DNA of 64,000 bases from Pseudalgibacter alginicilyticus (lineage in GTDB: Bacteria > Bacteroidota > Bacteroidia > Flavobacteriales > Flavobacteriaceae), in contig NZ_CP012898.1 in NCBI RefSeq assembly GCF_001310225.1, forward strand, positions 3,038,001 through 3,102,000, read 5' to 3'. Both the position numbers and the translations under genes were made by a program. This document shows, piece by piece, positions 5,965 through 35,957 of this stretch. The notes under the pieces were generated by a model. The model saw only the letters and a list, made by a program, of their open reading frames with translations. It was not told where the DNA came from and did no database searches. How positions within the stretch are numbered: position 1 is the first letter of the stretch; each line of letters starts with the position of its first letter.

Positions 5965-5978
5965 TGTAATCGATTACA
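5965..5978 (+). promoter_or_regulatory. LacI-type operator, uxaC promoter
   Basis: TGTAATCGATTACA is a perfect 14-bp palindrome with the central CG typical of LacI-family operators. It directly abuts the -7 box, so a bound repressor would cover the transcription start. An identical operator sits in the same position at the susC promoter. Confidence 0.85.
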
Positions 5979-10713: not shown

Positions 10714-11733
10714 TTAAGCATCAGATTTTAAAGATGATTTTCTTATTATTAATTTAGGCTTTAGTATAATTCTTTTTTCAATTTTAAATTTATTATTCAT
10801 TTGTTCTAAAAAAACTTGAGCAGCCATTTTTCCCATTTCAAGTGGAGATTGATCAATAGATGTTATAGATAGTTCCATGAATTTGGTAAATGGTTCGTTA
10901 CTAAAGCCAACAACACAAAAATCTTTAGGAACTTTAATTCCTTGTGATTTTAGCTCTTGAATGGCTCCTAATGCACTAAAATCACTTGATGAAAAAAGCC
11001 CATCTGGAGGTGTTTTCATTTTTAGCAATGATTTCATTGCTTTTGCGCCTTTAGTAATATCGCTTTTTATTTGAATGATATAATCTTCATTTAACTCTAT
11101 ACCATTATCCTCTAACGCTTGTTTATACCCTAAATACCTGTCTTTAAATATATCAATGTTATGACTTCCAGTATAATGTGCTATATGTTTACAGCCTTGG
11201 TTAATTAAATGTTTTGTTGCTTGATATCCCCCTTCAAAATCATCAATGGTCACAGAGCTAACACCCTCCATATTGTGTCTTCTATCAAAAAATATAAGTG
11301 GAATATTCTTTTTGATAACCCGGTTAAAATGGTTGGACTCTATGTTTGATTTTGTAATAGACATTAAAACACCATCTACCTGGGCGTTTAATAGAGTGTC
11401 TATATTTTCAATTTCTTTAGCATTCTCTTCATGAGTCTGGCAAATAATTACTTGGTAACCAAAAGGTGAAAGTTCATCTTCAATTCCTCTAATGATTGAG
11501 GCGAAAAAATTACTGTCTATACGAGGAACAATAACACCTACATTATAACTTTTTCCACTTTTTAGAGCTTGAGCAAGTTTGTTTTGTTCATAATTCATTT
11601 TAGCAGCAGTTTCTAATACAAGTTCTTTTGTAGCCGCACTAATTTTAGGATTATTGTTTAGTGCTCTTGAAACTGTAGCTGCTGTAATGTTCAGCTTTTT
11701 TGCGATATCATAAATAGTTGTCTTTTTTCCCAT
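10714..11733 (-). CDS. LacI family transcriptional regulator, likely the pectin/uronate repressor
   Basis: This protein of 339 residues from the ATG at 11733 is preferred over an in-frame TTG at 11742. The N-terminal helix-turn-helix is TIYDIAKKLNITAATVSRAL, followed by the hinge helix (NKLAQALKSGKS) that inserts into a central CG. A periplasmic-binding-protein-like effector domain follows (VGVIVPRIDSNFFASIIRGIEDEL, then SSDFSALGAIQELKSQGIKVP). It sits between the uxa operon and the divergent pectate lyase, whose promoter carries one of six copies of the palindrome TGTAATCGATTACA (12/14 here). It is therefore the best candidate to bind that operator and to release it on a pectin-derived sugar acid. 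This is inference from context. Confidence 0.88.
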   Translation of the reverse strand: MGKKTTIYDIAKKLNITAATVSRALNNNPKISAATKELVLETAAKMNYEQNKLAQALKSGKSYNVGVIVPRIDSNFFASIIRGIEDELSPFGYQVIICQTHEENAKEIENIDTLLNAQVDGVLMSITKSNIESNHFNRVIKKNIPLIFFDRRHNMEGVSSVTIDDFEGGYQATKHLINQGCKHIAHYTGSHNIDIFKDRYLGYKQALEDNGIELNEDYIIQIKSDITKGAKAMKSLLKMKTPPDGLFSSSDFSALGAIQELKSQGIKVPKDFCVVGFSNEPFTKFMELSITSIDQSPLEMGKMAAQVFLEQMNNKFKIEKRIILKPKLIIRKSSLKSDA

Positions 11734-11796
11734 AATAACCAATAATACAAAGTAGTAATTAGATTCAACAAAAGTAATATTTTTTGTATTTATATT

Positions 11797-11826: not shown

Positions 11827-11840
11827 ATTAATCGATTACA
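11827..11840 (+). promoter_or_regulatory. LacI-type operator, pectate lyase promoter
   Basis: ATTAATCGATTACA matches 12 of 14 positions of the TGTAATCGATTACA palindrome. The core TAATCGATTA is intact. It abuts the -7 box and lies in the lacI/pectate lyase divergent region, so it could also affect lacI transcription. Confidence 0.75.
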
Positions 11841-11855
11841 TCTCTGTTAAATAGT

Positions 11856-13097
11856 ATGAAAATGAATAAAAAAATAAAAATTATATTATTGTTTCTATGT
11901 TCTTTTATAGTTTACAACTCTTATGGAAGTGATTTAAGTGTTGCTCATGCATATCGGTACGCTGTAATGAAAAAAGCTAAGGGTAGTGATATTTTGTTGT
12001 TGGGTGAAGTTTTTGAAAATAACAACAGCTTAGAATCAAGGATTTATGAGTCATTTTTGTTTGACGAAAAGAGAATTGTTATAGCTAAAATATCTTCTCA
12101 TATAAACAAGGAGAAAATACGTGCAAAAGGCTTTTGTTCTTCAATAATTTCAGATTTAAAAGCAGAAAATATATTATTGTGGCAGCGTAACAATGGTGGT
12201 TGGCCAAAAGAACCCCACAATAATTTTTCTGGATACAATAGGGCGCAAACAGAAAAAGAGAAGGTATTAGCTCTGAGTACTAAAAATAGTACAGATACAA
12301 CCATTGATAATAATCATACAGTAGGCGAGATCAAATATCTATTAAAGGCTTATAAATTAACTAATAATATTAATTATTTAACAGGTGCTATTAAAGGTGT
12401 AGATTACCTTTTGGTAGCCCAATATGACAATGGGGGCTGGCCACAATATTATCCAGATAAAAGTGCTTATAGGCATCAGATAACTTTTAATGATAATGCC
12501 ATGGTTAATGTAATGAATTTAATGTGGGATATTTCAAAAGGGATTAATAATACAGATGTTCTTGATGTTAAATATAAAGAAAAAGCAATCAATGCATTTG
12601 CAAAAGGAATTGATATTATATTACAAACTCAGATAAGTATAGATGGAAAAAAAACAGGTTGGTGTGCACAATATGATGAAGTGACATTATTACCAGCATT
12701 GGCAAGGTCTTATGAATTACCTTCTATAAGTGGTTCCGAATCTGTAGGTATTGTTAGGGTGCTTATGCTTGTTGAAAACCCTTCATTTGAAATTATACAT
12801 TCTATACATTCTGCCGTTGATTGGTTTAATAAGGTTAAGATTAAAGATTTAGGTATACAAAAAACTTTTAATCCTGAGGATATGAAAGTAGTATCAAAAC
12901 CAGGAAATATTATGTGGGCTCGTTTTTATGATTTAAAAACACAACAGCCTTTTTTTTCAGGAAGGGATGGTGTTAAAAAAAACACATTAGCTGAAATAGA
13001 GATTGAAAGACGAGTTGGGTATGCTTGGTACGTTAAAGGTCCTAATAAATTGATAGGGACTCAATATACTAAATGGAAGTCTAAACATGGATTGTAG
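11856..13097 (+). CDS. Pectate lyase, PL10 family
   Basis: This 413-residue protein is predicted to be secreted (N-terminal hydrophobic stretch at about 6-24; an alternative ATG is two codons in). It matches the PelA/Pel-15E family PL10, an (alpha/alpha) toroid that cleaves polygalacturonate by beta-elimination using calcium. Visible family segments are NNGGWPKEP, DNNHTVGEIKYLLKAY, QYDNGGWPQYYPDKSAYRHQITFNDNAM (quoted in part as DNGGWPQYYP and ITFNDNAM), YELPSISGSESVGI and the C-terminal FFSGRDGVKK, which carries the Arg-Asp pair of the active site. The first ~90 residues before NNGGWP resemble the usual PL10 lead-in helices. It is divergent from lacI and under the shared operator. Confidence 0.88.
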   Translation: MKMNKKIKIILLFLCSFIVYNSYGSDLSVAHAYRYAVMKKAKGSDILLLGEVFENNNSLESRIYESFLFDEKRIVIAKISSHINKEKIRAKGFCSSIISDLKAENILLWQRNNGGWPKEPHNNFSGYNRAQTEKEKVLALSTKNSTDTTIDNNHTVGEIKYLLKAYKLTNNINYLTGAIKGVDYLLVAQYDNGGWPQYYPDKSAYRHQITFNDNAMVNVMNLMWDISKGINNTDVLDVKYKEKAINAFAKGIDIILQTQISIDGKKTGWCAQYDEVTLLPALARSYELPSISGSESVGIVRVLMLVENPSFEIIHSIHSAVDWFNKVKIKDLGIQKTFNPEDMKVVSKPGNIMWARFYDLKTQQPFFSGRDGVKKNTLAEIEIERRVGYAWYVKGPNKLIGTQYTKWKSKHGL

Positions 13098-13161: not shown

Positions 13162-14001
13162 TTAATTGGATGTTATGTTGAGTTCTTGTAAACCTATATA
13201 AACTAATTTAGCAACTTCTGTAGCTCCTTCAGATTGAAAATGAGTATTATCACTTAAGCCGTCAGGGTAAGCTTCATAAGTATCAGGCGGAAGATTCATA
13301 AAGTATTTTTGAGTCACGTATTCTTTGCCTGTTTTAGTAAAGAAATCTTTTGATTTTTTATTTAAATCAATAAGCATAACATCTAATTCTTTGGCAACAT
13401 CTTTAGGGGCCTTCCCGTATTCACCGTGAACATCACCAAGTATACCGTCTTGCCATGATTTATTTATAGCTACTGGAGTTAATATTATAGGTATAGCACC
13501 TTTGTCTCTAGTTTGATTTACAAAAAGCCTTAAAAATTCTTTATAACCTTTAATATCTACATAACGGTCTATTTTATTAGAGGATGCATCATTATGTCCA
13601 AATTGCATCATCACTATGTCATCTTTTTTAAGACTTTGATACACTGAGCGCCATCGACCTTCTTGAAAAAACGAACGTGTGCTACGCCCCCCTCGAGCCC
13701 TATTGTCAACATAGACACTGTCGTTTTTAATAATATTTCTTAGTTTTAACAAACTATCAGATTGCATGAACTGTTGAAAAACTTGCCCCCAACCTGTTAT
13801 GGGATATTTTTTTTTAATATAATCTTCTTTAGAATCATAATAGCTAATATAATCGGCCATAGTGGAATCACCAATTAGATATAGTGTTGTGAAAAATGTG
13901 TGTTCTTGATCTTTTGGTTTATCGTCATTTTTTTTTACGTTACAAGATAAATTAGTAAATAAAAGAGTTAATAATATTATAGCAATGGTTATTTTTTTCA
14001 T
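13162..14001 (-). CDS. Rhamnogalacturonan acetylesterase, CE12-like SGNH lipoprotein
   Basis: This 279-residue lipoprotein has lipobox cysteine at residue 20 (FTNLSC). The SGNH blocks are complete: GDST (Ser46), the Gly block GGRS (104-107), FGHND (Asn137) and DNTH (Asp251, His254). It is expected to remove O-acetyl groups from the rhamnogalacturonan I backbone so that lyases and hydrolases can act. It is the third gene after GH28 and GH105 on the same strand (gap of 44 bp to GH105), so it probably belongs to that operon. A second, non-lipidated paralogue is at 34423. Confidence 0.88.
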   Translation of the reverse strand: MKKITIAIILLTLLFTNLSCNVKKNDDKPKDQEHTFFTTLYLIGDSTMADYISYYDSKEDYIKKKYPITGWGQVFQQFMQSDSLLKLRNIIKNDSVYVDNRARGGRSTRSFFQEGRWRSVYQSLKKDDIVMMQFGHNDASSNKIDRYVDIKGYKEFLRLFVNQTRDKGAIPIILTPVAINKSWQDGILGDVHGEYGKAPKDVAKELDVMLIDLNKKSKDFFTKTGKEYVTQKYFMNLPPDTYEAYPDGLSDNTHFQSEGATEVAKLVYIGLQELNITSN

Positions 14002-15409: not shown

Positions 15410-16828
15410 TTAATATTGCTTTCCGTTTATAAATGTATTTTTAAATGTAATAGGCTCAGAATTTTCAATAGATAATGGTGTTTTTGCACCTTTAATGGTT
15501 ACATTAGTAAGTGTTACATTTTCAACAGGACTTTGTTCTCTACCTTTTATAAGTATGCCATATTTACCACTGTTTTCTACTTGAATATCTTCTAAATGAA
15601 TGTTTTTTATTGAAGGGATAAAGTCTCCTTCTTGATTGGCATAAATAGCATAATATGTGTTTATACGTAAGAAGGCTTCTTTTATTTGTCCAACTTGAAC
15701 GTTTTTAACATACAGGTTCTCCACAAATCCACCTCTTAATGTGTTGGTCTTAATACGAATAGCTCGATCTAAGTTAGGACTGTCCATTTTGCAATTTCTT
15801 ACAAATACATTTTTAACTCCTGCTGAAATTTCGCTACCAATAACAACACCGCCATGACCGTCTATCATATGACAATTTTCAATAACTATATTTTCACTAA
15901 CGATGTTTACGCTTCTACCATCATTATTTCTTCCTGATTTGATAGCAATACAATCATCACCTGTATTAAATGTGCAATTTGTTATATGAACATTTTTAGA
16001 ATATTCTGGGTCACAGCCATCGTTATTTGGCCCATGGCTATTTACTATTACACTATCAACTCGAACATAATTACATTTTATGGGGTGTATTACCCAAAAC
16101 GGAGCATTTGTAAAAGTTACACCTTGCAGTAGCACATTTTCGCACTCAAAAGGTTCAAAAAAATTAGGTCTTAATTGATAGCCATCACCAAAAACACGTT
16201 CAGATACTGGTATACCTTTTTCATTCATCATTCTTAATCTTGGTAAATTGATTGAATCATGTTGGCTCAAAGAGCCTTCTTCATATCCATAAGTGTTTTT
16301 CCCTACCCAAGGCCACCAGTTTGTATTGTTTGCTTGACCATCAAAAGTACCTTTGCCTGTTACTGCTATATTTTTTTGTTTATAAGCATAAATCAGAGGC
16401 GAGTAATTCATTAGTTCAGTTCCTTCAAAAGATGTATGTACAACAGGTAAGTAAGCTTTTTTATCTGTTGTAAAAAGTACGATGGCCCCCTCTTCTAAAT
16501 GCAAATTTACATTGCTTTTTAAGTGTATAGGACCAGTTAAGAATTGACCATTAGGTATGAGAACTTTTCCTCCTCCTGCTTGCGTACAACTTTCAATGGC
16601 TTTTTTAATTGCTGTAGAATTATTAGTCTTTCCATCTCCTTTAGCACCAAAATCTATAATATTAAATACGTTATTTGGGAATTTTAATTCTTTTATTTCT
16701 TCAATAATTTCGTCTGCTTTATCAAAATTATTGATTACTTCTGTTTTAGGATTCTTGTTTTTACATGAATTAAAGAAAAAAACAAAAGCTGAAAGAATTA
16801 GGATTGGAAATAAGGTTTTATTTTTCAT
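15410..16828 (-). CDS. Polygalacturonase, GH28 family lipoprotein
   Basis: This protein of 472 residues starts from ATG 16828. The longer in-frame start at 16858 would overlap the operator and is rejected. It has a lipobox at FFFNSC (Cys22), then a right-handed beta-helix. All four GH28 motifs are present: NND (268-270), GDD (290-292), GHG (324-326) and RIK (358-360), so it should be an active inverting hydrolase on galacturonan-type chains. An N-terminal segment FNIIDFGAKGDGKTNN marks the start of the fold. It is the first gene of the GH28-GH105-CE12 operon and is under the LacI-type operator. Confidence 0.92.
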   Translation of the reverse strand: MKNKTLFPILILSAFVFFFNSCKNKNPKTEVINNFDKADEIIEEIKELKFPNNVFNIIDFGAKGDGKTNNSTAIKKAIESCTQAGGGKVLIPNGQFLTGPIHLKSNVNLHLEEGAIVLFTTDKKAYLPVVHTSFEGTELMNYSPLIYAYKQKNIAVTGKGTFDGQANNTNWWPWVGKNTYGYEEGSLSQHDSINLPRLRMMNEKGIPVSERVFGDGYQLRPNFFEPFECENVLLQGVTFTNAPFWVIHPIKCNYVRVDSVIVNSHGPNNDGCDPEYSKNVHITNCTFNTGDDCIAIKSGRNNDGRSVNIVSENIVIENCHMIDGHGGVVIGSEISAGVKNVFVRNCKMDSPNLDRAIRIKTNTLRGGFVENLYVKNVQVGQIKEAFLRINTYYAIYANQEGDFIPSIKNIHLEDIQVENSGKYGILIKGREQSPVENVTLTNVTIKGAKTPLSIENSEPITFKNTFINGKQY

Positions 16829-16841
16829 ATTTATATTTTTA

Positions 16842-16855
16842 TGTAATCGATTGCT
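16842..16855 (-). promoter_or_regulatory. LacI-type operator, GH28 operon
   Basis: Read on the minus strand the site is AGCAATCGATTACA, 12 of 14 positions of the palindrome. It follows the -7 box directly and ends 13 bp before the GH28 ATG. Confidence 0.75.
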
Positions 16856-17160: not shown

Positions 17161-17168
17161 TATATTTG
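17161..17168 (+). promoter_or_regulatory. -7 box of the T9SS-sorted protein gene
   Basis: TATATTTG, a perfect TAnnTTTG, is followed at once by an operator. No obvious -33 TTG is present. The ATG is 40 bp downstream. Confidence 0.65.
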
Positions 17169-17182
17169 AGTAATCGATTACA
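17169..17182 (+). promoter_or_regulatory. LacI-type operator, T9SS-sorted protein gene
   Basis: AGTAATCGATTACA matches 13 of 14 positions of the palindrome and abuts the -7 box, the same geometry as at the other pectin promoters. Confidence 0.8.
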
Positions 17183-17207: not shown

Positions 17208-18137
17208 ATGAAAAAACAACTACTTTTACTTATCGTATTAATGTTAAGTTTTACAACAGCACTCGAGGCACAAATCAAAGTATGGGATTTAGCCGGTGAA
17301 CAATTAGGAGCGGGTTACACGAATATGTTAACGACAAATGATTTGAATGACATATTTCATAATGGTATTACCTATGGAAATTCTGGGCTATCAATGGCTG
17401 CAGGTACTTTTGTTATTAATTCTAGTGAGCCTGGAATCAGTTATGTTACAACATCTGCCAATCAAGACAGGATTAGAACCAATAATACAACACAAACAAG
17501 ATATGATGAATCAGCTGTTCCTGGTCCAGCAGCAGAAGCTCCTTATACTAATGGCACAACTAATTATGTAGGCGGAATCTATGCAAATGGTACAGGAAAT
17601 CATGGAAGACGTCATTTATTATTAGATTTAGTGTCTGGTGATAAAATAACTGTTATAATGTCACTGCAATCTACTGGTGGTGCTACAGAGGGAACATTTA
17701 CTGTTAGGGATCCTTTAGATGTAGATGTGGTTTATGGTCCTTATGATACAACACCTGATTATTATGGTGCTTATGCAATACATATTGAAGCGGCCACTAC
17801 TGGTGCCTATAAATTATACACAACAGAAAATAAAGCTAAATTTTATAGAGTTTATGATGATTATGTTACCATGACAGGTATTCCAGATATAAATGGAGAA
17901 GCGCTTTCTGTTAAAAACATGTCTCATGTAACTACAGATTTACATGCGGCTGGAGATAGAGTGTATGTATCAAATGTAAAATCAAATACAGAAATTAAAA
18001 TATATAGCATTACAGGTGTTTTAGTTAAAGCATTTAAAACAAATATCGATACAGACTTTAGTTTTAAATCAGGTTTATATATTGCAACAGTAAAGACTTT
18101 TGAAGGTCAAAAATCAATTAAATTATTATTAAATTAA
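17208..18137 (+). CDS. Secreted protein of unknown function with T9SS C-terminal sorting domain
   Basis: This protein of 309 residues starts from ATG 17208; an upstream in-frame extension would run through the operator. A signal peptide (MKKQLLLLIVLMLSF, cleaved near LEAQ) precedes about 220 residues of Gly/Thr/Tyr-rich beta sequence with no enzyme motif I can recognise. The last ~75 residues (VKSNTEIKIYSITG through GLYIATVKTFEGQKSIKLLL) match the type A sorting domain recognised by the type IX secretion system, so the protein is exported to the surface or medium. A promoter with the shared pectin operator drives it and a strong hairpin follows, so it looks monocistronic. A carbohydrate-binding role is plausible but unproven. 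Confidence 0.75.
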   Translation: MKKQLLLLIVLMLSFTTALEAQIKVWDLAGEQLGAGYTNMLTTNDLNDIFHNGITYGNSGLSMAAGTFVINSSEPGISYVTTSANQDRIRTNNTTQTRYDESAVPGPAAEAPYTNGTTNYVGGIYANGTGNHGRRHLLLDLVSGDKITVIMSLQSTGGATEGTFTVRDPLDVDVVYGPYDTTPDYYGAYAIHIEAATTGAYKLYTTENKAKFYRVYDDYVTMTGIPDINGEALSVKNMSHVTTDLHAAGDRVYVSNVKSNTEIKIYSITGVLVKAFKTNIDTDFSFKSGLYIATVKTFEGQKSIKLLLN

Positions 18138-18152
18138 TTAGTTAATATATTT

Positions 18153-18201
18153 TATAAATAAGAAAAGATATGTGTGAAAAATATATCTTTTCTTATTTAT
18201 A
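18153..18201 (+). terminator. Strong hairpin after the T9SS-sorted protein gene
   Basis: Two perfect 19-bp arms (18153-18171 and 18183-18201, starting TATAAATAAG) are separated by 11 nt. The arms are AT-rich and the hairpin starts 15 bp after the stop codon. It probably acts as a terminator or 3' stabiliser. Confidence 0.7.
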
Positions 18202-18395: not shown

Positions 18396-20399
18396 ATGAG
18401 AAAAATAAAATATGAGAAAATAAAAAGTTATTATAAAATAATACTGTTTTGCATTTCTTTAAGTGTTCTGTCATGCAAAAGCTCTTCTTTCGTTATAGAT
18501 AGTGAGGCATTGGATAGTACAGTTATTGTATTACCTGAAAACCCTAACTCAATAAATTTATTTTCAGCAAGAGAATTAAATTATCACCTTAAGTTAATAT
18601 ATGGAAAAGAGTTACCTATTATTAACACAAAAGATCCTGAATATAAACAGCATATATTTTTAGGGATAATGCCGAAAGTGTATGAAAAAGATCTTAGTAG
18701 CGAAGAAGGAGTTTATCTTGTTCAGGATACTGATATATATGTGTTTGGTTATGATAAAGTTAATAGTACTTACAACAATTCTAATCCAGGGGATTACAAT
18801 GATATTGTATTGAGTGAAGTGTTAGATATGCGCTATAATCAAACGGGCTCCTTGTTTGGTTTGTATAATTTTATTGAAAAAGAACTTGAAGTTACTTGGT
18901 TGAAATCTGGTGAAAACGGTGTTTTTTATACAGAAAATGTATCTCATTCTATAAAAAATAAAGAAGTTTCCTGGGTGCCATCTTTTACTCAAAGGAATAT
19001 TAGAACTGGAGATTTTAAGACGGTATCAGGTAAAAAATTTGCACCTGATGAATTTGATTTAACTGAAGAAGAGAGAATACAAAGCAATATAGATCATTAC
19101 GTGTGGCTTAGACGAATGAAATTTGGTTATAGTAACTATTATCAATTTCAACATGCTTTTAACACTTATTGGGATGATTTTAAAGATACAAAACCAGATA
19201 TTTTTGCACTGAATGGTAATGGTGAAAGAAAACCCTATAACAGAAAAGATAGAAAAGGAAGAACTGAAAGAATTAAGATGTGTCCATCTAATGAGGATTT
19301 ACCTGGAATTATGGTTGAAAAATGGTTAGAAGCTAAGAAAAACAACCCACTACAACATAGTGGTTCTATTTCTGTTTGTGAAAATGATAGTGATGGTTTT
19401 GGAGATCCTGAATGGTGTCATTGTGAAGGGTGTTTGGCATTAGATACTCGCGAAGAAGGAGAGCCATTAAGTAAGAGCCTCTCAGATAGATATATTCACT
19501 TATGGAACAAAGTTGTAACAGAAGCACAAAAGTATCAAAAAGATATTTTAGTTTCTGGCTATGCTTATGAACAAATGTTGTTACCTCCTAAAAGAGAAAA
19601 ATTACATCCTTCTACTTTAGTAGAATTTGTACCTGAATTGTTAGCGGACTTTGATAAAACTCAAAAGTTATACGAGGATTGGAGAGCTGTAGGTATGACA
19701 AAAATGTACTTCAGACCTAATGATTTACATTGGCAATTTGGTATGTCGTTAGGATTAGAAAAACGAGTTTTTGAGCATTTTCAATTAGCTGTTAAGAATG
19801 GAGCTGAAGGGACTGATTATGATTCTTTAATTATATTTGGAGAAGGTGTTTCTGATATGGTTAACTTCATATTGGCAAAAGCACATCAGAATCCTGATGA
19901 AACGTTTGAGAACCTTGAAAATGAGTTTTTAGACGTTTTTGGAGCGGCTAAAGAAGACATCAGGAAATTTTATGGATATTGGAGAGAAATCTACACTAAT
20001 GAATTAGTTCCTGAGGATTTATCTCTAAGTGATGGCAGGATACCTACTTATTTCAAATTTGGTAAAATGGGTGGGCTAACAAGACGAATTGATGAATTTT
20101 ATGAAATATCTGATTTTGATAAAACAGATATGTTATTAAACAATGCTCTCGATAAAGATATTTCAGATCAAGCTAAAGATTATATCAATAGAATGAAAAT
20201 TTCGAATAAACATTCAAGATTAACCTTCTTGGCTTTAGTGGCAGGAATTGATGGCGATTCGGAAGAACTTACAAAAAAAACAAAGGAACTTATAGCTTTT
20301 AGAGTTGCCAATAAAAATATTATTGATGTAGATTGGGAAGAGCTTTTTAATGTTCAATACAGGCAATTAAAAAATCAATTAAAAATTGAGAACCTTTAG
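18396..20399 (+). CDS. DUF4838 domain-containing lipoprotein
   Basis: This 667-residue protein has an N-terminal lipoprotein signal (about 12-27, ending VLSCKSS). The N-terminal part (SARELNYHLKLIYGKELPIIN) resembles the alpha-glucuronidase-type N-terminal domain that often precedes DUF4838. The central part matches DUF4838 style (IMVEKWLEAKKNNP, SISVCENDSDGFGDPEWCHCEGC, YEQMLLPPKREKLHPSTLVEFVPE) and probably forms a TIM-like barrel. The family is common in polysaccharide utilisation loci and assumed to be a glycoside hydrolase; no catalytic residues are assigned here. The start is ambiguous because ATGAGAAAA occurs twice in tandem around 18396. No shared operator was seen upstream. Confidence 0.75.
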   Translation: MRKIKYEKIKSYYKIILFCISLSVLSCKSSSFVIDSEALDSTVIVLPENPNSINLFSARELNYHLKLIYGKELPIINTKDPEYKQHIFLGIMPKVYEKDLSSEEGVYLVQDTDIYVFGYDKVNSTYNNSNPGDYNDIVLSEVLDMRYNQTGSLFGLYNFIEKELEVTWLKSGENGVFYTENVSHSIKNKEVSWVPSFTQRNIRTGDFKTVSGKKFAPDEFDLTEEERIQSNIDHYVWLRRMKFGYSNYYQFQHAFNTYWDDFKDTKPDIFALNGNGERKPYNRKDRKGRTERIKMCPSNEDLPGIMVEKWLEAKKNNPLQHSGSISVCENDSDGFGDPEWCHCEGCLALDTREEGEPLSKSLSDRYIHLWNKVVTEAQKYQKDILVSGYAYEQMLLPPKREKLHPSTLVEFVPELLADFDKTQKLYEDWRAVGMTKMYFRPNDLHWQFGMSLGLEKRVFEHFQLAVKNGAEGTDYDSLIIFGEGVSDMVNFILAKAHQNPDETFENLENEFLDVFGAAKEDIRKFYGYWREIYTNELVPEDLSLSDGRIPTYFKFGKMGGLTRRIDEFYEISDFDKTDMLLNNALDKDISDQAKDYINRMKISNKHSRLTFLALVAGIDGDSEELTKKTKELIAFRVANKNIIDVDWEELFNVQYRQLKNQLKIENL

Positions 20400-22876: not shown

Positions 22877-23755
22877 CTATGCTACATTTTTAAATTGATA
22901 AAATTCTTGTTCTACTTCATAAGGAGTTTTATACCCTAAAAAAGAGTGTAAACGTTTCCTATTGTACCATATTTCGATGTATTCAAAAACAGCTGTTTTA
23001 GCCTGCTCAATAGTTTTAAAATCATCATCATAAATAAGTTCAACCTTTAATGTTTTAAAGAAGGATTCAGCAACGGCATTATCCCAACAATTACCCTTTC
23101 TACTCATAGATTGGGTTACCAAAGGGTTGGATTTAATAAAAGTTCTAAATGCTTTTGAGGCGTATTGTATCCCTCGATCTGAGTGAAATATTAACCCCAT
23201 GTTTATAGTACGCTTGTTTACAGCCATTTTCCATGCAGGAATAATAGTTTGATTGGTGTGTAAACTTGTACTTAATGACCAACCTATTACCTGCCTATCA
23301 AACAAATCAATAATAGTGGTTAGGTACAGCCAACCTTGATTGGTCTGGATGTAAGTGATATCGCTGACCCAAGCTTCATTCAACCTACTGGGGTTAAAGT
23401 TCCTGTTCAGCAGATTTCTGCAAACATGATAACCGTGGTTGGAATCTGTAGTTGCCTTAAACTTCCTTTTGTGTTTGCTTGCCCAATTGTTCATCCTCAT
23501 AATTTTAGCCACTCTACATCTGGATATACAGTACCCTTTGCGTTTTAGTTGTTCTGCTATTCTTGTGGAGCCATAACGCTGTTTACTCAGGTCAAATTCC
23601 TTTTTTATTAAATCTGTAAACAAGCTCTTTTCAAATGTTCGTTTTGATGGTCCTGCTGTGTACCATCTATAAAAACTGCTCCTACTTACTTTAAAAACTT
23701 TGCATATCTTCTCGATGGGGTATAAATGCCTGTAGCTGGCTATAAATCCATAGAT
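22877..23755 (-). CDS. IS3-family transposase orfB (DDE integrase)
   Basis: The orfB frame opens upstream of the first ATG (23623) and overlaps the end of orfA near 23755. Extended, it begins with QIYGFIASYRHLYPIEKICK and FYRWYTAGPS, as in other IS3 OrfB proteins. The HTH_21 segment (KKEFDLSKQRYGSTRIAEQL) is followed by an rve core with the DDE triad: Asp in WVSDITYI, Asp in FHSDRGIQY and Glu in VAESFFKTLKVE. It ends with WYNRKRLHSFLGYKTPYE. It should be made as an OrfAB fusion by -1 frameshifting; an AAAAAC stretch lies in the overlap but is not the classic A AAA AAG heptamer. The catalytic part is intact. Confidence 0.88.
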   Translation of the reverse strand: MYGFIASYRHLYPIEKICKVFKVSRSSFYRWYTAGPSKRTFEKSLFTDLIKKEFDLSKQRYGSTRIAEQLKRKGYCISRCRVAKIMRMNNWASKHKRKFKATTDSNHGYHVCRNLLNRNFNPSRLNEAWVSDITYIQTNQGWLYLTTIIDLFDRQVIGWSLSTSLHTNQTIIPAWKMAVNKRTINMGLIFHSDRGIQYASKAFRTFIKSNPLVTQSMSRKGNCWDNAVAESFFKTLKVELIYDDDFKTIEQAKTAVFEYIEIWYNRKRLHSFLGYKTPYEVEQEFYQFKNVA

Positions 23756-24300: not shown

Positions 24301-25254
24301 TTAATTAGCTCTCTTTAATATGTACTTATTGAAAGCTAACCAGTTTTCACATGCAATTGGCCAGAAATTGTTATTTTCCTCAGATCCCATTCCAAAGCCA
24401 TGACCTCCCTTTTGGTATATATGCATTTCAACTGGAACTTTATTTTTGTTAAGAGCCCTGTAGTAAGTTAAAGAATTCTGCACGGGCACAGAATTATCAT
24501 CTGAAGCATGTACTAAAAAGGTTTTCGGGGTATTTCCGTTAACTTGAATTTCATTAGAATATTTATTTAAATATTTTTCTGTTATATCTGTTCCTAATAA
24601 GTTTTTTCTCGAATTTATATGTGTCATTTCATCTTTCATAGAAATAACAGGGTATATTAAAATAGAAAAATTAGGTTTGGCACTAATACTGTCTAATGTT
24701 GGTAATAGTTTTTCTGCATATCGAGTTGATAAGGTAGCTGCTAAATGTCCTCCAGCAGAAAATCCCATAATTCCAATTTTATTGGGGTTTAAATGCCATT
24801 TTTTAGAATGTAACCTTACTAACTTCATTGCTTGTTGTGCATCTTGAAGTGGCCCTATTGATTTATCAATCATAATAGCATCAGAAGGGAGTCTGTATTT
24901 AAGTACAAAAGCAGATATCCCAATAGAATTAAGCCATTTTGCTACTGAAAATCCTTCTTTATTTATTGATAAATGAGAGTATGCTCCACCTGGGCATATT
25001 ACTAGCCCTGTACCATTTGAAATTGTAGAGTCTGCTAAAAAAACAGTTATAGTAGGCTGTGATACCTTACTAACGCCATTTATCTCTCCGTTATTAAAGT
25101 AAGTGAATTGTTCTTTGTAATCTATATCTTTTATAGCTCCAGGCACATTACTCCATAAATTTATTTCAAAACCTTGAGAGAAGCTCAAGGTTTTGAAACA
25201 AAAAATATATAAAATAAAACCAATTTTTAAATTGTTAAAAATATGTATCAACAT
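24301..25254 (-). CDS. Alpha/beta hydrolase, probable carbohydrate acetylesterase
   Basis: This 317-residue protein has an N-terminal hydrophobic signal (about 8-27, ending SFSQG), so it is probably periplasmic. The oxyanion region is VICPGGAYSHLS, the nucleophile elbow GFSAGGH, and the Asp/His pair lie in HASDDNSVPVQN and KGGHGFGMG. This resembles the BD-FAE/xylan esterase-like group often found in pectin loci, where they remove acetyl or other ester groups from oligosaccharides. It is the fifth gene of the sus operon, 12 bp after the PL1 gene. The precise ester is not known. Confidence 0.82.
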   Translation of the reverse strand: MLIHIFNNLKIGFILYIFCFKTLSFSQGFEINLWSNVPGAIKDIDYKEQFTYFNNGEINGVSKVSQPTITVFLADSTISNGTGLVICPGGAYSHLSINKEGFSVAKWLNSIGISAFVLKYRLPSDAIMIDKSIGPLQDAQQAMKLVRLHSKKWHLNPNKIGIMGFSAGGHLAATLSTRYAEKLLPTLDSISAKPNFSILIYPVISMKDEMTHINSRKNLLGTDITEKYLNKYSNEIQVNGNTPKTFLVHASDDNSVPVQNSLTYYRALNKNKVPVEMHIYQKGGHGFGMGSEENNNFWPIACENWLAFNKYILKRAN

Positions 25255-25266
25255 AAAAGTTAACCT

Positions 25267-26805
25267 CTAAATCTGGTTGTTTGTAATATTTTCAACAAGA
25301 CTGTTAATATAAACTTCAACATTATCGTAACCCGTACTTAAATCATTTCCATTAGGATTTGATTCAGATACATTTAATTTTTTCTCAATTTTCCATGCGT
25401 CTGGCATACCATCACCTGAAGTATCAACAGGAGCTGGTTCTGATATTAATTCTGGCCAACCACCAACATCTGCTTGGGAATCAATTAATCCTAAAGTACT
25501 GCCTTCAGAACCTTCATATTGATAAGTACCTGTTCTTACATCATTTACAACTCTAATGTCAACAACATCACGTACTAATGATGCACCTGCGTAATCAAGA
25601 ACTTTGTTGTAAGCTATTTCTGCAGTATGTGTTGTTACATTATTCTCAATATCATGAGGTTCGCTTAATTTCATGGCTGCTTTATCTTCATCAGTTACAG
25701 GAATACTATATCCACAATTAATAATGTAGCCATTAGAATCTGTACAGGTATTTGTGTAAGATGTGTAAGATGCATGAAATTGGTTATAAACACCATAGGT
25801 CCAATTATCATTTGTTGAATTTGGGTAACCATCTACATAGTTTCCATCTATATAAAATTTACCCCAAACATCATAATTGTCATATCCATATACCTTTGTT
25901 TTATCCATAGCAAAAATACGTCCTTCCTTTAAAGCTGTATTTTGAAAAGTTCTAGGCCCTGGTTTGTAATAATTGTTAACAATATTAGCATTCATACCTT
26001 CTCCTCCATAAGTACTATTGCTTCCCCAGTTATAAATAACATTATTTCTTAAATCTGTTAAATCTGTAAAAGAAAAAGAAGAGCCTGTTGTTTCACTTAA
26101 TCTTGGGTTTCTAGCATCATGGTGCGCTAATAAGTTATGATGAAAAGAAGCGTATTTTCCACCCCATATGCCTCCATAACCGTGAGCACCTTTATCATGA
26201 ACAGAAATTGTTAAACTTTCTGAAATCATACACCATTGTATTGTTGTATTTGTATTATTATAAAATGAGGCACACTCATCAGTAGACCAGCTCATAGAAC
26301 AATGGTCTACAACAATATTTTCTTGAAACCGAGCTCCTAATGCATCATCTTCTTGTTGTGCTTCATCTCCCATTCTGAATCTTAAATATCTGATAATAAC
26401 ATTATTAGTGTTTATTGTGACAGGGTAATTTTTTATACAAATTCCATCGCCTGGAGCTGTTTGTCCTGCAATTGTAACATCGCCATTTTCTATTTTTAAG
26501 TCCGATCTAAGCGCTATGGTACCTGAAACTTTAAATAAAATATAACGAGGTCCTGATGCCTGAATAGCTGATCGTAAACTACCAGAGCCACTATCTTGTA
26601 GATTGGTAACGTAAATCACTCTGCCGCCTCTACCTCCGGTAGTGTTTTTACCAAAACCTTCTGCTCCAGGGAATGCCAAAGCCTCTTCTACAACAGCTGT
26701 TGGGCCATCTTGGCCTTCACCTCCATTTTCTTCATCAGGTGAATCACTACCACAAGCTGAAAAAAGAAGCAATGCTATTACTATAATTGGATAATATATT
26801 TTCAT
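25267..26805 (-). CDS. Pectate lyase, PL1 family lipoprotein
   Basis: This 512-residue lipoprotein (LLLFSAC, Cys18) has an acidic Gly-rich linker. The beta-helix begins at AFPGAEGFGKNTTGGRGG, with VSGTIAL, VDHCSMSWSTDE and the Arg-containing HDARNPRLSE, which together mark the PL1 (Pel-like) fold with calcium ligands and the catalytic Arg. A C-terminal stretch contains DTSGDGMPDAWKIEKKLN, a calcium-binding-like segment. It should cleave polygalacturonate at the cell surface, feeding oligosaccharides to the adjacent SusCD. The gene is in the sus operon between the surface lipoprotein and the esterase. Confidence 0.9.
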   Translation of the reverse strand: MKIYYPIIVIALLLFSACGSDSPDEENGGEGQDGPTAVVEEALAFPGAEGFGKNTTGGRGGRVIYVTNLQDSGSGSLRSAIQASGPRYILFKVSGTIALRSDLKIENGDVTIAGQTAPGDGICIKNYPVTINTNNVIIRYLRFRMGDEAQQEDDALGARFQENIVVDHCSMSWSTDECASFYNNTNTTIQWCMISESLTISVHDKGAHGYGGIWGGKYASFHHNLLAHHDARNPRLSETTGSSFSFTDLTDLRNNVIYNWGSNSTYGGEGMNANIVNNYYKPGPRTFQNTALKEGRIFAMDKTKVYGYDNYDVWGKFYIDGNYVDGYPNSTNDNWTYGVYNQFHASYTSYTNTCTDSNGYIINCGYSIPVTDEDKAAMKLSEPHDIENNVTTHTAEIAYNKVLDYAGASLVRDVVDIRVVNDVRTGTYQYEGSEGSTLGLIDSQADVGGWPELISEPAPVDTSGDGMPDAWKIEKKLNVSESNPNGNDLSTGYDNVEVYINSLVENITNNQI

Positions 26806-30401: not shown

Positions 30402-33400
30402 TTAAAATGTTAGGTTAACGCCAAATGTATATGAGCGTGATCTTGGGTAAGATGAATTATCAAGCCCAGGTGTAAAAGGATTAGAACTTGAGTTAACTTC
30501 TGGATCGTAGCCAGAGTATTTAGTCCAAATAGCAAGGTTTCTACCAGTTGCAAACACTCTAAATTGGGAAAGTCCTATTTTAGAGATTAATTTTTTTGGT
30601 AAACTATAACCTAATGTAACATTATTTAGCCTTAAGAAAGAACCGTCTTCTATAGCCCAACTATGGATTGTAGCAGTATAGTTAGTAAAACTTCGATGTG
30701 ACCACATGGTTTTACCTTCATTTAATTCTCTTAACTGTTCTAAATCAGTTACAATACCTCCAGGAGTACCCGTGTATGAACCATCAACATCAAGATATGT
30801 GAATCTGTTATCTATACTCATGGTGTTCAGTAGGTTTCCGTTTGTAACTCTGAAATATTGGTTGAATTGTATTTTACCAGAATTATACACGTCATTTCCT
30901 ACTTGAAAATTTAGGAAGGTTGCTAAATCAAAGTTTTTATATCTTACATTAAAACCAAAACCACCTTGAAAATCTGGTAGAGCATTCCCGATTACTTGTC
31001 TATCACCATCATCAGTTATATACCCATCACCATTTAAATCTTTTAGTTTTAAAAACCCTGGTCTAACCTCGTTTCCAACAGTAGCTGAAGCATCAGCAAC
31101 TCCTTCTTTTAAATTATATTCATTGGATGATTCGTTATAACTATCAAAATCATCAATTTCATAATAGCCATCAGTAACAAATCCGTACATATTTCCTATT
31201 TTTCCGCCAACTTCAAGTTGATAGTCATTAATGTTTTTTAAACTGGTACTGGCCCAATTTGATTGAGCAAATAATGATTGCGTGCCATCTAATCTTTCAA
31301 TAGTAAGTGTGTTTTTACCAATATTAAAGTTTGCAGATAAGGTAAAATCTTTACTATCTATAATATATCCAGTTAAACCAAGTTCAATTCCTTTATTAGC
31401 AGTAACACCCACATTGGCATATTGTGCTGTAAATCCTGTATTATTTGGTATGGCTTGCGTATATAGTAAATCTTTTGTTTGGTTTTCGTAGTATTCAAAA
31501 CTACCATCCAACCGCTTGTTAAACAATGTGAAATCAAGTCCAAAATTACTTGTTGAGGTTGTTTCCCATTTTAAGTCAGGGTTATACAAGCTTGAACTTT
31601 GAGGGTAATAGATAAGATTATTTACATTGTCAAAGCCAGGGCCTCTTAATGTTGTTGTGGAAAATAAAAATTGGGTTAAACCACTACTAATCCTATCGTT
31701 ACCAGTTTCTCCGTAACTTATTCTAAGTTTTAATTGATTAATAAAATCAATATCTTTAATAAAATTCTCTTCGTTAAGTTTCCAAGCAAAAGCTAATGCA
31801 GGAAATATGCCCAAGGTGTTTTTGCCTCTAAACCTACTAGATTCGTCTGCTCTAGCAGTAAGCGTGAATATATATTTGTCTTGTAGCTGAAAGTCAAATC
31901 TACCAAAAAAAGATTTTCTGTTAGTTTCTATACTCTCACCACTTGTTTGTCTATCAAAAGTTCCTAATTGCATATTTGCAAATAGTTCTTCGGGAGTAAT
32001 TGATACTCTAAATTGCTCTGCTCTAAGAAAGTTTGATTGACCTCCTGCAGATGAAATTTCGTGACCTACTAAGATGTCTAATTTAGAGTCCACCCATTCT
32101 TTTTTATAGTTTAGAGTATTAATGAAACGATAACTATTGTCCTTGCTACTTGTTCTTTCTCCTAACGGTAAGCTACCACCATTGTTAAATGATTCGCTTG
32201 TTAGTGGGCCATAAAATCTTAATGTTTCTGTGGTGCCATGTGAATCTGAATAGGATGATTTAGCAGTTAAATTATCAGTTATATTCCATGTTAATGCTGC
32301 GTTGAAAACGTAATCATAATCAGTTCTTTTTCTCCAATCTTGTTCAACTAATTCACTCGGATCCACTAAACTTAAAAGAAACTGTTGATAATCGTCATTT
32401 TCGTTTGTTGCATTTAAATCTATTTCTAACTCATCTGCAATACCGTTTACTGGTCTGGCTTGTACAGCATCTCTTATTTTTAGTTGTCCACTTGATGTAC
32501 CTGCGCCGTCTTTTACACTATTTGTAATTCTTGCTTGGGCGTCAAAAGTAAGTTTGTTTGATATCTTTTGGTTTAATTTAAAATTTATTGATGTTCTTTC
32601 ATAACCTGAGCCATCCAATAAGCCTTCGTCTTTATTATTAGAAAGACTTAAATTCATTTTAGTCATTTCAGTACCACCTCCAATACTTAAGTTGTGAGAT
32701 TGTGATACTCTAGAACCCCCAAATAATTCGTCCTGCCAATCGGTACCTTCTTTACTTTTATAAAGTTCAAAATCGTCGTATTTGCCATAATATTTTTCAA
32801 ATGCATCAATGGCAGCTTGCCCTCTCATAGCTTCATATTCATAATTTGCTAAAACAAACTCATAAGGACTTAAAACTTCATATTTTCTATCTCCAGGTAA
32901 TTCACTAAATTGAAAATAATTATTATAAGAAATTGTTGTCTTTCCCTCTTCTGGTGATTTTGTTGTTACAACAATAACCCCATTTGAAGCTTGAGCTCCA
33001 TAGACTGCTGTTGCTGCAGCATCTTTTAAAACGTTAATACTTGCAATATCATTTACAGGTATGTTGTCAATACTTGACACAATAAAGCCATCAACAACAA
33101 ATAAAGGACTATTGTCTTGAGATAAAGAAGTACCACCTCGAATTCGAATTGTAACTTCAGAACCTGGCTCTCCATCAGCAGAAGTTACATTAACACCTGA
33201 TAGACGACCAGAAAGTGCTTCCGAAGCACTGGAAACGGGGATTGTTGATAGCTCTTTACCACTAATACTTGTTGTTGAGCCAGTCATATCTGTTTTTTTT
33301 ACTTTCCCATAGCCATAATCAACAAGAACTATTTCGTCTAATTGAGAAATGTCTTCAACCATTTCAACATTAATTATATTTTCATTTCCTATGGGTATTT

Positions 33401-33659
33401 CCTGTGTTTTGTAACCAACATAAGAAAATACCAAAGTTTCGCCATTGTTAGGAATATTTAATGTAAATTTCCCGTTAAAATCGGTAGTAACTCCTGTGGT
33501 TGTTCCTTTAACGAGGATGGTTACACCAGGAAGAGGGAGTTCTGATTTTTCATCTGTTATTGTTCCGTTAACACTTTTATTTTGTGATTGTATGATACTT
33601 GTAAAGATGAAAAAGACTTTAATTACAAATAAATTCTTTTTTTTAAAGAATGTTTTCAT
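30402..33659 (-). CDS. SusC/RagA family TonB-linked outer membrane transporter
   Basis: This protein of 1085 residues starts from ATG 33659 (MKTFFKKKNL); the longer in-frame start at 33716 is less likely. A signal peptide is followed by a carboxypeptidase-regulatory-like domain (VNGTITDEKSELPLPGVTI), then the plug with the SusC signature VSSASEALSGRLSGVNV, SPLFVVDGF and AAATAVYGAQASNGV, and a long barrel ending in aromatic YTFGVNLTF. It imports oligosaccharides with SusD in a TonB-dependent way. It is the first gene of a six-gene minus operon (susC, susD, surface lipoprotein, PL1, esterase, broken GH28) driven by a promoter with a perfect pectin operator. Confidence 0.95.
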   Translation of the reverse strand: MKTFFKKKNLFVIKVFFIFTSIIQSQNKSVNGTITDEKSELPLPGVTILVKGTTTGVTTDFNGKFTLNIPNNGETLVFSYVGYKTQEIPIGNENIINVEMVEDISQLDEIVLVDYGYGKVKKTDMTGSTTSISGKELSTIPVSSASEALSGRLSGVNVTSADGEPGSEVTIRIRGGTSLSQDNSPLFVVDGFIVSSIDNIPVNDIASINVLKDAAATAVYGAQASNGVIVVTTKSPEEGKTTISYNNYFQFSELPGDRKYEVLSPYEFVLANYEYEAMRGQAAIDAFEKYYGKYDDFELYKSKEGTDWQDELFGGSRVSQSHNLSIGGGTEMTKMNLSLSNNKDEGLLDGSGYERTSINFKLNQKISNKLTFDAQARITNSVKDGAGTSSGQLKIRDAVQARPVNGIADELEIDLNATNENDDYQQFLLSLVDPSELVEQDWRKRTDYDYVFNAALTWNITDNLTAKSSYSDSHGTTETLRFYGPLTSESFNNGGSLPLGERTSSKDNSYRFINTLNYKKEWVDSKLDILVGHEISSAGGQSNFLRAEQFRVSITPEELFANMQLGTFDRQTSGESIETNRKSFFGRFDFQLQDKYIFTLTARADESSRFRGKNTLGIFPALAFAWKLNEENFIKDIDFINQLKLRISYGETGNDRISSGLTQFLFSTTTLRGPGFDNVNNLIYYPQSSSLYNPDLKWETTSTSNFGLDFTLFNKRLDGSFEYYENQTKDLLYTQAIPNNTGFTAQYANVGVTANKGIELGLTGYIIDSKDFTLSANFNIGKNTLTIERLDGTQSLFAQSNWASTSLKNINDYQLEVGGKIGNMYGFVTDGYYEIDDFDSYNESSNEYNLKEGVADASATVGNEVRPGFLKLKDLNGDGYITDDGDRQVIGNALPDFQGGFGFNVRYKNFDLATFLNFQVGNDVYNSGKIQFNQYFRVTNGNLLNTMSIDNRFTYLDVDGSYTGTPGGIVTDLEQLRELNEGKTMWSHRSFTNYTATIHSWAIEDGSFLRLNNVTLGYSLPKKLISKIGLSQFRVFATGRNLAIWTKYSGYDPEVNSSSNPFTPGLDNSSYPRSRSYTFGVNLTF

Positions 33660-33845
33660 AGCCTCTCTTTTTTTAGAAAAGAATGCTAAGTAACTTAATA
33701 AGTATGGGCTAGTCATAAATGCGTTTGTTTATTAGTTATTATTGTAAGTTTTTAATTTAAAAAATGATTAAATCATGATAATTGTGTAACATATTGCTAA
33801 TGGTTGTTTTTTGTATAGTTGGTTGTAAATTAATGAGTAATATTT

Positions 33846-33859
33846 TGTAATCGATTACA
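33846..33859 (-). promoter_or_regulatory. LacI-type operator, susC promoter
   Basis: A perfect TGTAATCGATTACA palindrome directly downstream of the susC -7 box. It is identical in sequence and position to the uxaC operator. Confidence 0.85.
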
Positions 33860-34213: not shown

Positions 34214-34227
34214 GGTAATCGATTACA
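34214..34227 (+). promoter_or_regulatory. LacI-type operator, second CE12 gene
   Basis: GGTAATCGATTACA, 13 of 14 positions, abutting the -7 box as at the other five sites. Confidence 0.8.
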
Positions 34228-35300: not shown

Positions 35301-35957
35301 TTGAAGTTAAAGAAATATTCTACAGTAAAAATTGATGCTAACCAATTAAAAATTAATGGGAAGGGTGACCATCCACTATGGGAGAAGGCTATAAGCTTGA
35401 CAGATTTTAGTTCGCCTTGGGATGATGAAATAATAAAAAGAATAGAATTTAAGGCTTTGTGGGATGGCGTTAATTTATATTGTTGTTTTAAAGTTGAAGA
35501 TTCTAAAACATATATTGACACAACTGATAATACAAAAAGTAGTATTAATAATTCTGATAGAGTAGAACTTTTTTTTAGAAGAAGCAAAGCCTTAAATCCG
35601 TATTATTGTTTAGAAATAGATCCAACTCCACGTTTGATGGATTTTAAAGCAAAGCCGAATAAAGAATTTGATTTCAATTGGAATTGGCCAATAAACGATA
35701 TTGTAATTAAATCACATACTGGGTCTACATTTTTTACAGTCGAAATTGAAATAAGCCTCCTGTCACTTAAAAATTTTGAACTTATAAATAACGGTCAAAT
35801 TGAAATCGGAATTTTTAGAGCAAAATACCATCAACAAACAAATGGTAGTTATGAACCTACTTGGATAACTTGGGTAGACCCTAAAACAGAAACTCCTAAT
35901 TTTCATACAGCAAAAGCTTTTGGACTTATGAATTTGGAGTGTTTTGAGCTTCATTAA
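35301..35957 (+). CDS. CBM9-like carbohydrate-binding protein
   Basis: This 218-residue protein has no signal peptide. The only possible start is TTG at 35301, because an in-frame TAA lies two codons upstream. The pattern LKINGKGDHPLWEKA, then ALWDGVNLYCCFKVEDS, SDRVELFFRRS and a final GIFRAKYHQQ/EPTWITWVDP matches the CBM9-like beta-sandwich of DOMON/CBM9 proteins found near sugar-catabolic genes. Aromatic residues in WITWVDP could stack on a sugar. Without an export signal it may be intracellular, or its true start may be lost. It lies between the CE12 esterase and the nucleotidyltransferase. Confidence 0.65.
   Translation: MKLKKYSTVKIDANQLKINGKGDHPLWEKAISLTDFSSPWDDEIIKRIEFKALWDGVNLYCCFKVEDSKTYIDTTDNTKSSINNSDRVELFFRRSKALNPYYCLEIDPTPRLMDFKAKPNKEFDFNWNWPINDIVIKSHTGSTFFTVEIEISLLSLKNFELINNGQIEIGIFRAKYHQQTNGSYEPTWITWVDPKTETPNFHTAKAFGLMNLECFELH

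Follow-up and report, generated by a model that had tools for sequence, protein, structure and literature searches.

The gene at 17208-18137 of the window, by which we mean the whole stretch of 64,000 nucleotides of Pseudalgibacter alginicilyticus DNA that was analysed, probably encodes a secreted or surface-held, non-catalytic pectin-binding protein belonging to a pectin regulon, the binding being predicted from sequence relationships and a model structure. By sequence comparison, the main domain of this protein is a distant stand-alone version of a module of about 185 residues that lies N-terminal to the CE8 domain, the hosts being large pectin methylesterases in Bacteroidota and some Bacillota. 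On the same comparison, it represents a new free-standing form within a CBM-like family of modules that neither Pfam nor NCBIfam lists. The gene, its tail, its operator, the module family, the predicted fold and the linkage to CE8 are supported by the computations.

17208-18137, plus strand: gene for a stand-alone, T9SS-tailed carbohydrate-binding-like protein of 309 amino acids (translation of the open reading frame)
17208-17270, plus strand: signal peptide, residues 1-21, MKKQLLLLIVLMLSFTTALEA/Q, cut before Gln22 (inspection)
17268-17915, plus strand: CE8-associated beta-sandwich module, residues 21-236 as folded (profile, A2 alignment, model and fold search)
17964-18131, plus strand: T9SS type A C-terminal sorting domain, residues 253-308 (TIGR04183)

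A longer mechanical open reading frame opens at TTG 17115, upstream of ATG 17208; the ATG is preferred as the start, as it fits a normal signal peptide and agrees with the homologs. Gln22, the first residue after the predicted cleavage, agrees with the ‘Q-rule’ of Bacteroidetes signal peptides (PMC5837995, excerpt). TIGR04183 matches residues 253-308 at 27.7 bits, above its cut-off of 23, and the Pfam tail model PF18962 reaches 21.1 bits, under its cut-off of 27. Besides this tail, the protein had no match to any Pfam or NCBIfam model up to an E-value of 10. The architecture described in the initial annotation, with a signal peptide, some 220 residues of no known domain and a T9SS sorting domain, is thus borne out, the stretch that matches no family in these collections being about 215 residues long. 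PF01095 was among the models that gave no match up to E 10, so the protein is not a CE8 pectin methylesterase, and inspection found no cysteine among residues 1-30, which sets it apart from the SusE/F-like SGBP lipoproteins. The P. alginicilyticus genome encodes SprA (2750 bits in a profile search) and has 59 matches to the T9SS tail, 58 of them over the cut-off, so the export route is likely to be present. T9SS type A cargo is cleaved by PorU and then either attached to the surface or released (PMC10202324, excerpt), which leaves the location of the protein between surface and medium.

When 397 genomes of the taxonomic family were searched with the single protein, 30 gave matches, many of them via the tail only, and the matches to the domain fell into four short frames and frames of about 1150-2600 amino acids. 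Seven of the large proteins were scanned: the four with the module have PF01095, and the three that share only the tail have no Pfam match. As a side observation, the proteins at L046:9531-12986, L044:8844-12884 and L044:5907-8552 are large and T9SS-tailed (881-1346 amino acids), carry the tail of the window protein and have no Pfam match at E 0.01. Independent single-sequence matches to enzyme-linked modules went down to E 6e-21. An iterated local profile gave a 19-row alignment that includes the window row (A1), and a scan of the P. alginicilyticus genome with a profile based on it returned one copy of the domain, covering model positions 2-182 of 184, the window row being part of that profile. 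A single-sequence scan of genome contigs found no relative, whereas the A1 profile found 127 among 154 candidate stretches, from which the best 80 loci were used. Together with 20 further stretches, these loci yielded 98 module-bearing rows representing 90 distinct proteins, the window protein excluded.

PF01095 was found in the C-terminal part of 68 of the 79 large relatives from the 80-locus set (up to 560 residues scanned), and a home-made profile of the C-terminal parts detected a CE8-like part in 85 of the 98 rows (79 of the 90 distinct proteins). The 13 rows lacking such a part comprise five stand-alone rows (four proteins), four rows with three or four copies of the module (three proteins), one protein of the companion type, the match to which is weak and partial, and three frames that are short or cut off by a contig end. 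We count it in favour of pectin binding that a module with no CE8 domain attached is found either stand-alone or in three to four copies. A separate case is L091:9503-10888 in Mariniflexile gromovii, where the module-bearing frame stops at 461 amino acids, mid-contig and with no CE8 domain; this is either a truncated gene or a true short form. The module profile detects the family in 17 of 397 family genomes and 6 of 395 class genomes, and A1 in 7 of 395 phylum genomes, so its distribution is sporadic. Matches that are outside Bacteroidota by label include Lachnospiraceae, Oscillospiraceae and one Phycisphaerae MAG, and the names and sample labels of the module-bearing bacteria point to sea, soil and gut.

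A larger alignment (A2) holds 72 rows, the window row and 71 of the 110 module rows after clustering at 78%. Scans of these 72 domain rows against Pfam and NCBIfam gave only weak matches confined to single members, and none for the window row. W26, D27, N39, N47 and R88 are invariant throughout A2, and the window row shares with most others W26, D27, N39, N47, D87, R88, R98, D100, R135, K209 and R214. Both a whole-module match and the conserved W-D, N, N and R positions, by which we define the CE8-associated module family, are thus found in the window domain. In the window protein the profile match stops near residue 224-229. Several features count against the pectin-binding reading: the window row lacks some family residues (Gly for Arg at 123, Ile for Trp at 49 and Leu for Phe at 28), it is only 23-35% identical to the other 71 rows, and it lies on a long branch in the tree. 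The initial annotation had suggested that the domain could be new, and this holds in that no Pfam or NCBIfam family covers it and fails in that distant relatives have solved structures.

The search of the 397 family genomes gave four other stand-alone relatives (L050, L047, L043 and L046). A quick tree separates the five stand-alone rows from the remaining 67 (SH-aLRT 93), with branches so long that the program flags them. A single origin of the five is possible from this tree, with the proviso that long branches may attract each other. An origin of the domain by recent loss of the enzyme part was considered and found unsupported, the five stand-alone rows being separate from the 67 in the same quick tree. 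Arrays of three to four module copies with no CE8 domain occur at L111:8798-12526, L116:8807-12775 and L121:9308-12772 (Salegentibacter and Salinimicrobium). The L111 array, from Salegentibacter, is the one for which neighbouring genes were scanned; it has TSP3 repeats and a T9SS tail, and sits between SusC, SusD and DUF4957/5123 genes on one side and PL9-like and pectic acid lyase genes on the other.

The regulatory context of the gene agrees with a role in pectin use. Its neighbours in the locus include, by Pfam, genes for UxaC, a mannitol-dehydrogenase-type protein, an altronate dehydratase, a LacI regulator, GDSL esterases, SusC and SusD, and further genes for a pectic acid lyase, a GH88-family protein, two GH28 proteins, a DUF4838 protein, an alpha/beta hydrolase and a DUF4957/5123 protein. 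Three other features of the window were noted in passing: a transposase with an integrase core (rve, HTH_21) at 22877-23623, between GH28 and esterase genes; a pectate-lyase-like protein at 25267-26805, seen by inspection and with no Pfam match at E 1e-5; and a CBM9-like protein of 218 amino acids with no other Pfam domain at 35301-35957, at the edge of the locus. The regulatory features are listed below.

17161-17168, plus strand: TATATTTG, -7 promoter box TAnnTTTG, the same box standing directly before the operator at five of six locus sites
17169-17182, plus strand: operator AGTAATCGATTACA, probable LacI-family site, one mismatch from TGTAATCGATTACA
5965-5978: operator copy upstream of uronate-pathway genes (UxaC at 6133 and following; pattern scan)
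11827-11840: operator copy with two mismatches and no TAnnTTTG box, upstream of the pectic acid lyase gene at 11856 (pattern scan)
16842-16855: operator copy with two mismatches, for the GH28 gene on the minus strand (15410-16828; pattern scan)
33846-33859: operator copy for the SusC-like TonB receptor gene on the minus strand (30402-33716; pattern scan)
34214-34227: operator copy for the GDSL esterase gene at 34423 (pattern scan)
10714-11742, minus strand: LacI-family regulator (PF00356), probable reader of the operator (Pfam and homology)

The statement that the gene has its own copy of the operator was correct: AGTAATCGATTACA abuts the 3′ end of the TATATTTG box, and we take TAnnTTTG, and hence TATATTTG, to be a -7 promoter box of the Bacteroidota type. 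When up to two mismatches are allowed, the locus has six operator sites, and in all except the one at 11827 the box directly precedes the operator and is oriented towards the next gene, these genes being UxaC at 6133, the GH28 gene at 15410-16828, the gene at 17208, the SusC-like gene and the GDSL gene at 34423. In the whole 3.99-Mb genome there are four sites with at most one mismatch, and all four are in the pectin locus. At two mismatches the genome holds 19 sites, six of them in the locus, and a reversed control pattern gives 42, so the remaining 13 are likely to be background. The operator pattern GTAATCGATTAC occurs in 56 copies in 32 of the 80 best module-bearing loci, as against one copy of the reversed pattern; these loci had been picked by the protein module alone and not by the operator. 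In the 20 further stretches, several of which are the same loci, there were 16 copies in 11 stretches, against one for the reversed pattern. Exact GTAATCGATTAC is absent from 48 of the 80 loci, and this we count against the pectin-binding reading.

The same operator accompanies some of the stand-alone relatives. GTAATCGATTAC stands just behind a TTTG box upstream of the stand-alone genes in L050 and L047. L050, from Mariniflexile maritimum (with a twin, L086), has mannitol-dehydrogenase-type, altronate-dehydratase (uxaA/uxaB-like) and LacI genes nearby, and the LacI protein encoded at 10714-11742 of the window is 75% identical to the LacI protein near this M. maritimum homolog. L047 is a 14-kb stretch of a MAG in which 12 of the 14 neighbouring frames were scanned and no pectin gene was found; the neighbours include thymidylate synthase, AIM24, LysR, ferritin, a transporter, an isomerase, an acyltransferase and a two-component pair, among others. 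Of the regulatory links this is the most telling, since the gene carries the operator and yet none of the frames scanned around it is a pectin gene. Upstream of the stand-alone genes in L043 and L046 no such operator was found, which again counts against pectin binding; the L043 gene adjoins SusC/SusD, and that in L046 is near a SusC-like gene.

These last two relatives bear on the nature of the ligand, which could be RG-I, RG-II or alginate and not homogalacturonan, a reading that overlaps with our preferred one where the glycan is pectic. The GH28, GH88-family, GDSL and SusC/SusD genes of the window locus could serve rhamnogalacturonan, and the L043 and L046 genes have their Sus-type neighbours and no operator. 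The strongest linkage of the module, however, is to CE8, the substrate of which is methyl-esterified homogalacturonan (PMC12109409, excerpt), and we consider one of the other glycans unlikely on balance as the ligand.

Structure prediction and fold search had been proposed as a check on the initial annotation, and gave a beta sandwich with the PDB entries 8wc1 and 8x8h as its first matches. The AlphaFold2 model made on A2 (pLDDT 77.6, pTM 0.81) has a weak stretch at model residues 87-97. Foldseek ranked 8wc1 (E 2.5e-5) and 8x8h (E 6.2e-5) as the top two, and in VIA-align 8x8h scored Z 12.2 (140 residues, 3.0 Å) and 8wc1 Z 11.5 (143 residues, 3.4 Å), the next row being at 8.2. Both entries are titled ‘a carbohydrate binding domain of a putative pectate lyase’, which is the wording of the depositors. 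Profile searches of the PDB also had 8x8h and 8wc1 as their best matches, at E 6.5e-5 and 5.8e-4 with A1 and at E 6.6e-6 and 0.03 with A2, and phmmer with the single window protein found nothing there. These profile matches span only the C-terminal half of the domain, for 8x8h about profile positions 80-173, a point that counts against the pectin-binding reading. Several CBM35 rows were at Z about 7-7.5, no better than background in the VIA-align list, and CBM77 does not appear in the list of fold matches, which excludes nothing. With regard to the usual marks of a CBM, the model shares its fold with the solved carbohydrate-binding domains 8x8h and 8wc1, though fold alone shows no function, and the link to carbohydrate-active enzymes is found in the relatives through CE8 and not in the window protein, which has no enzyme linked to it.

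Beta sandwiches have many roles, and the rows at Z 6-8 for the window model include MAM, adhesin and other domains, so that the module might be a structural spacer or a protein-protein docking domain, which would place other modules within the CE8 enzymes, the free protein docking to a secreted or surface partner and not to a glycan. Its position N-terminal to the CE8 part of long multi-domain proteins would suit such a role, as would the acidic character of the window domain (13 K+R against 23 D+E), which tells against a simple charge-based model of binding. We nevertheless find this distinctly improbable: the two top structures, well separated from all other rows, bear titles that describe a carbohydrate-binding domain of a putative pectate lyase, and free copies bearing the pectin operator and arrays of three to four copies in a pectin locus are better suited to glycan binding. 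Pectin binding, put forward in the initial annotation as one of two possibilities, is supported by the homology to the CE8-associated module, the fold of 8x8h and 8wc1 and the operator of the pectin locus.

The second possibility, an enzyme, was not supported. No match to PF01095 was found in the P. alginicilyticus genome, despite its large pectin locus, and three genomes with other stand-alone relatives have matches in 4, 5 and 6 places. The organism may meet low-methyl pectin, or another esterase of the locus may substitute, the candidates being the GDSL proteins at 13162 and 34423 and the alpha/beta hydrolase at 24301. That the window protein is itself such a substitute, a pectin-active enzyme from a new family, is highly improbable, since the CE8 gap and the nearly invariant Asp, Arg and Asn residues are set against nearest structures titled as binding domains, no known catalytic motif seen on inspection, two GDSL esterases and an alpha/beta hydrolase that are better candidates, and the separate CE8 domain in most of the large relatives, fusion to which means that the module need not supply esterase activity.

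The module-bearing loci also contain a second family of small T9SS proteins, of about 265 amino acids, each with a signal peptide, a sandwich domain and a similar T9SS tail. It was aligned as A5, with 29 of 32 rows used.

L033:10964-11773, L034:4260-5057, L040:5065-5892, L035:6881-7711, L039:6905-7735 and others: members of the companion family (A5)

In 63 loci the sequence downstream of a large module-bearing protein extends for 3.5 kb or more; three of these proteins are arrays with no CE8. The companion lies downstream of the large protein in 24 of the 63, within 400 bp in 14 of these, and is found in none of the other 39; L103, counted among the 24, has its match in a 736-residue protein. 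The operator was found upstream of four of the five companion genes checked (L034, L035, L040 and, with one mismatch, L039) and not of L033. The companion model (pLDDT 85.5) matches 8x8h at Z 17.5 and 8wc1 at Z 17.2, the next row being at 10.8, and is thus closer to 8x8h than the window model is. The two families are alike in signal peptide, sandwich, T9SS tail, operator and the 8x8h/8wc1 fold, and are distant in sequence, with an hhalign probability of 94% over 81 columns of a weak alignment. The companion has no Pfam family, only weak PPC matches in 3 of 29 rows, and its profile gave one weak PDB match (5iku, E 0.21), though its fold matched 8x8h and 8wc1. A 298-residue frame in G126, considered as a fifth small relative of the window protein on the strength of a single-protein match at E 3e-7, was rejected, since it belongs to the companion type. 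On sequences and models, free-standing T9SS-tailed binding-like proteins recur in module-bearing pectin loci, and the window protein is, as far as sequence can tell, the one built on the module that the esterases themselves carry. The pattern of operators points to one pectin operator common to such proteins across genera.

A hairpin follows the gene.

18153-18201, plus strand: perfect 19-bp hairpin with an 11-nucleotide loop, a terminator or a 3′-end or processing element (inverted-repeat search and folding)

Its arms, 18153-18171 and 18183-18201, pair at all 19 positions, as the initial annotation had it. The folding z-score is -5.8, none of 200 shuffles folded as well, and no other perfect 19-bp inverted repeat in the 64-kb window has a loop of 3-15 nucleotides. 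That the gene is ended by the hairpin, as had also been claimed, is unproven, since it is A+T-rich, has no T run behind it and is not listed by a terminator-consensus scan that requires both G-C pairs and a run of Ts. The next genes, at 18396 (DUF4838) and 20608 (GH28), have no close operator, the nearest site (20644, three mismatches) being inside the second of them; the hairpin is therefore possibly a partial stop or a stabilised 3′ end, and as such it may favour the first gene of a longer transcript.

Considering these results together, we infer a scheme that covers repression and induction, export, final location, the pectin ligand, the binding site and the benefit to the cell. Pectin products would inactivate the LacI-type repressor and the promoter at 17161 would fire. 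The protein would pass the inner membrane through Sec and the outer one through the T9SS, after which the tail would be removed. The beta sandwich would then bind pectin, most likely the polygalacturonate backbone (homogalacturonan), via a putative site of conserved residues that includes R88, R90, R98, R135, K209 and R214, the domain itself presumably having no catalytic function. Held at the surface or released, the protein may gather pectin close to the cell, or loosen it to the benefit of the lyase and the GH28 enzymes encoded in the locus.

SGBPs are lipoproteins of the Sus machinery. SGBP-B-like proteins such as CHU_1279 are non-catalytic glycan-binding proteins of a utilisation locus, as the window protein is predicted to be; unlike them, it has a T9SS tail and no cysteine near its N-terminus. 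CHU_1279 binds cellulose at the surface and is required for growth on it; growth was also restored by variants that bind far less, so that binding is perhaps not its whole role (PMC12016534, excerpt). The nearest solved structures, 8x8h and 8wc1, agree with the window protein in predicted fold and profile match and were deposited as parts of pectate lyases; they differ in sequence (about 11-14% identity), and also in that the window protein stands alone and ends in a T9SS tail. BT0996-C of Bacteroides thetaiotaomicron (PDB 7zvo) is a Lys-rich polygalacturonate-binding module (PMC9843283, excerpt). It is likewise a beta-sandwich binder of the pectin backbone and appears among the fold matches at Z 7.7, a score at the level of unrelated rows, whereas it is part of an RG-II enzyme and has a Lys-rich patch where the window domain is acidic. 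The large multidomain CE8 pectin methylesterases of Bacteroidota and Bacillota share the module sequence family, and the window protein differs in having no catalytic domain; PmeC5 of Butyrivibrio is likened to them by description only, its paper naming likely CBMs and adhesin-like domains and, in the excerpt available, nothing more specific (PMC12109409). No paper carrying the codes 8x8h or 8wc1 was found in the open-access literature, and among the matches listed there, judged by title and the start of the abstract, none describes a stand-alone T9SS pectin binder. These searches also yielded no binding data on the window protein or its close relatives, which counts against the pectin-binding reading. 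Such a protein is not mentioned in the available part of a study of the Gramella flava pectin PUL (PMC5306329).

In conclusion, the analysis assigns a likely function to a secreted protein of the ‘hypothetical’ kind, and defines within large pectin methylesterases a module family that lies outside Pfam and NCBIfam. The free-standing, T9SS-tailed binding-like proteins come in two sequence types. There is, in our estimation, an even chance that some Bacteroidota export free pectin-binding modules through the T9SS as members of a regulon, in one case with no pectin gene among the scanned neighbours, and that a CBM family absent from Pfam and NCBIfam and otherwise found in CE8 enzymes survives here where CE8 itself is lacking. 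Such proteins would act as diffusible or surface-held pectin traps or wall looseners, not as appendages of enzymes, and free binding modules of this kind could explain how cells attach to, or loosen, the walls of plant or algal cells.
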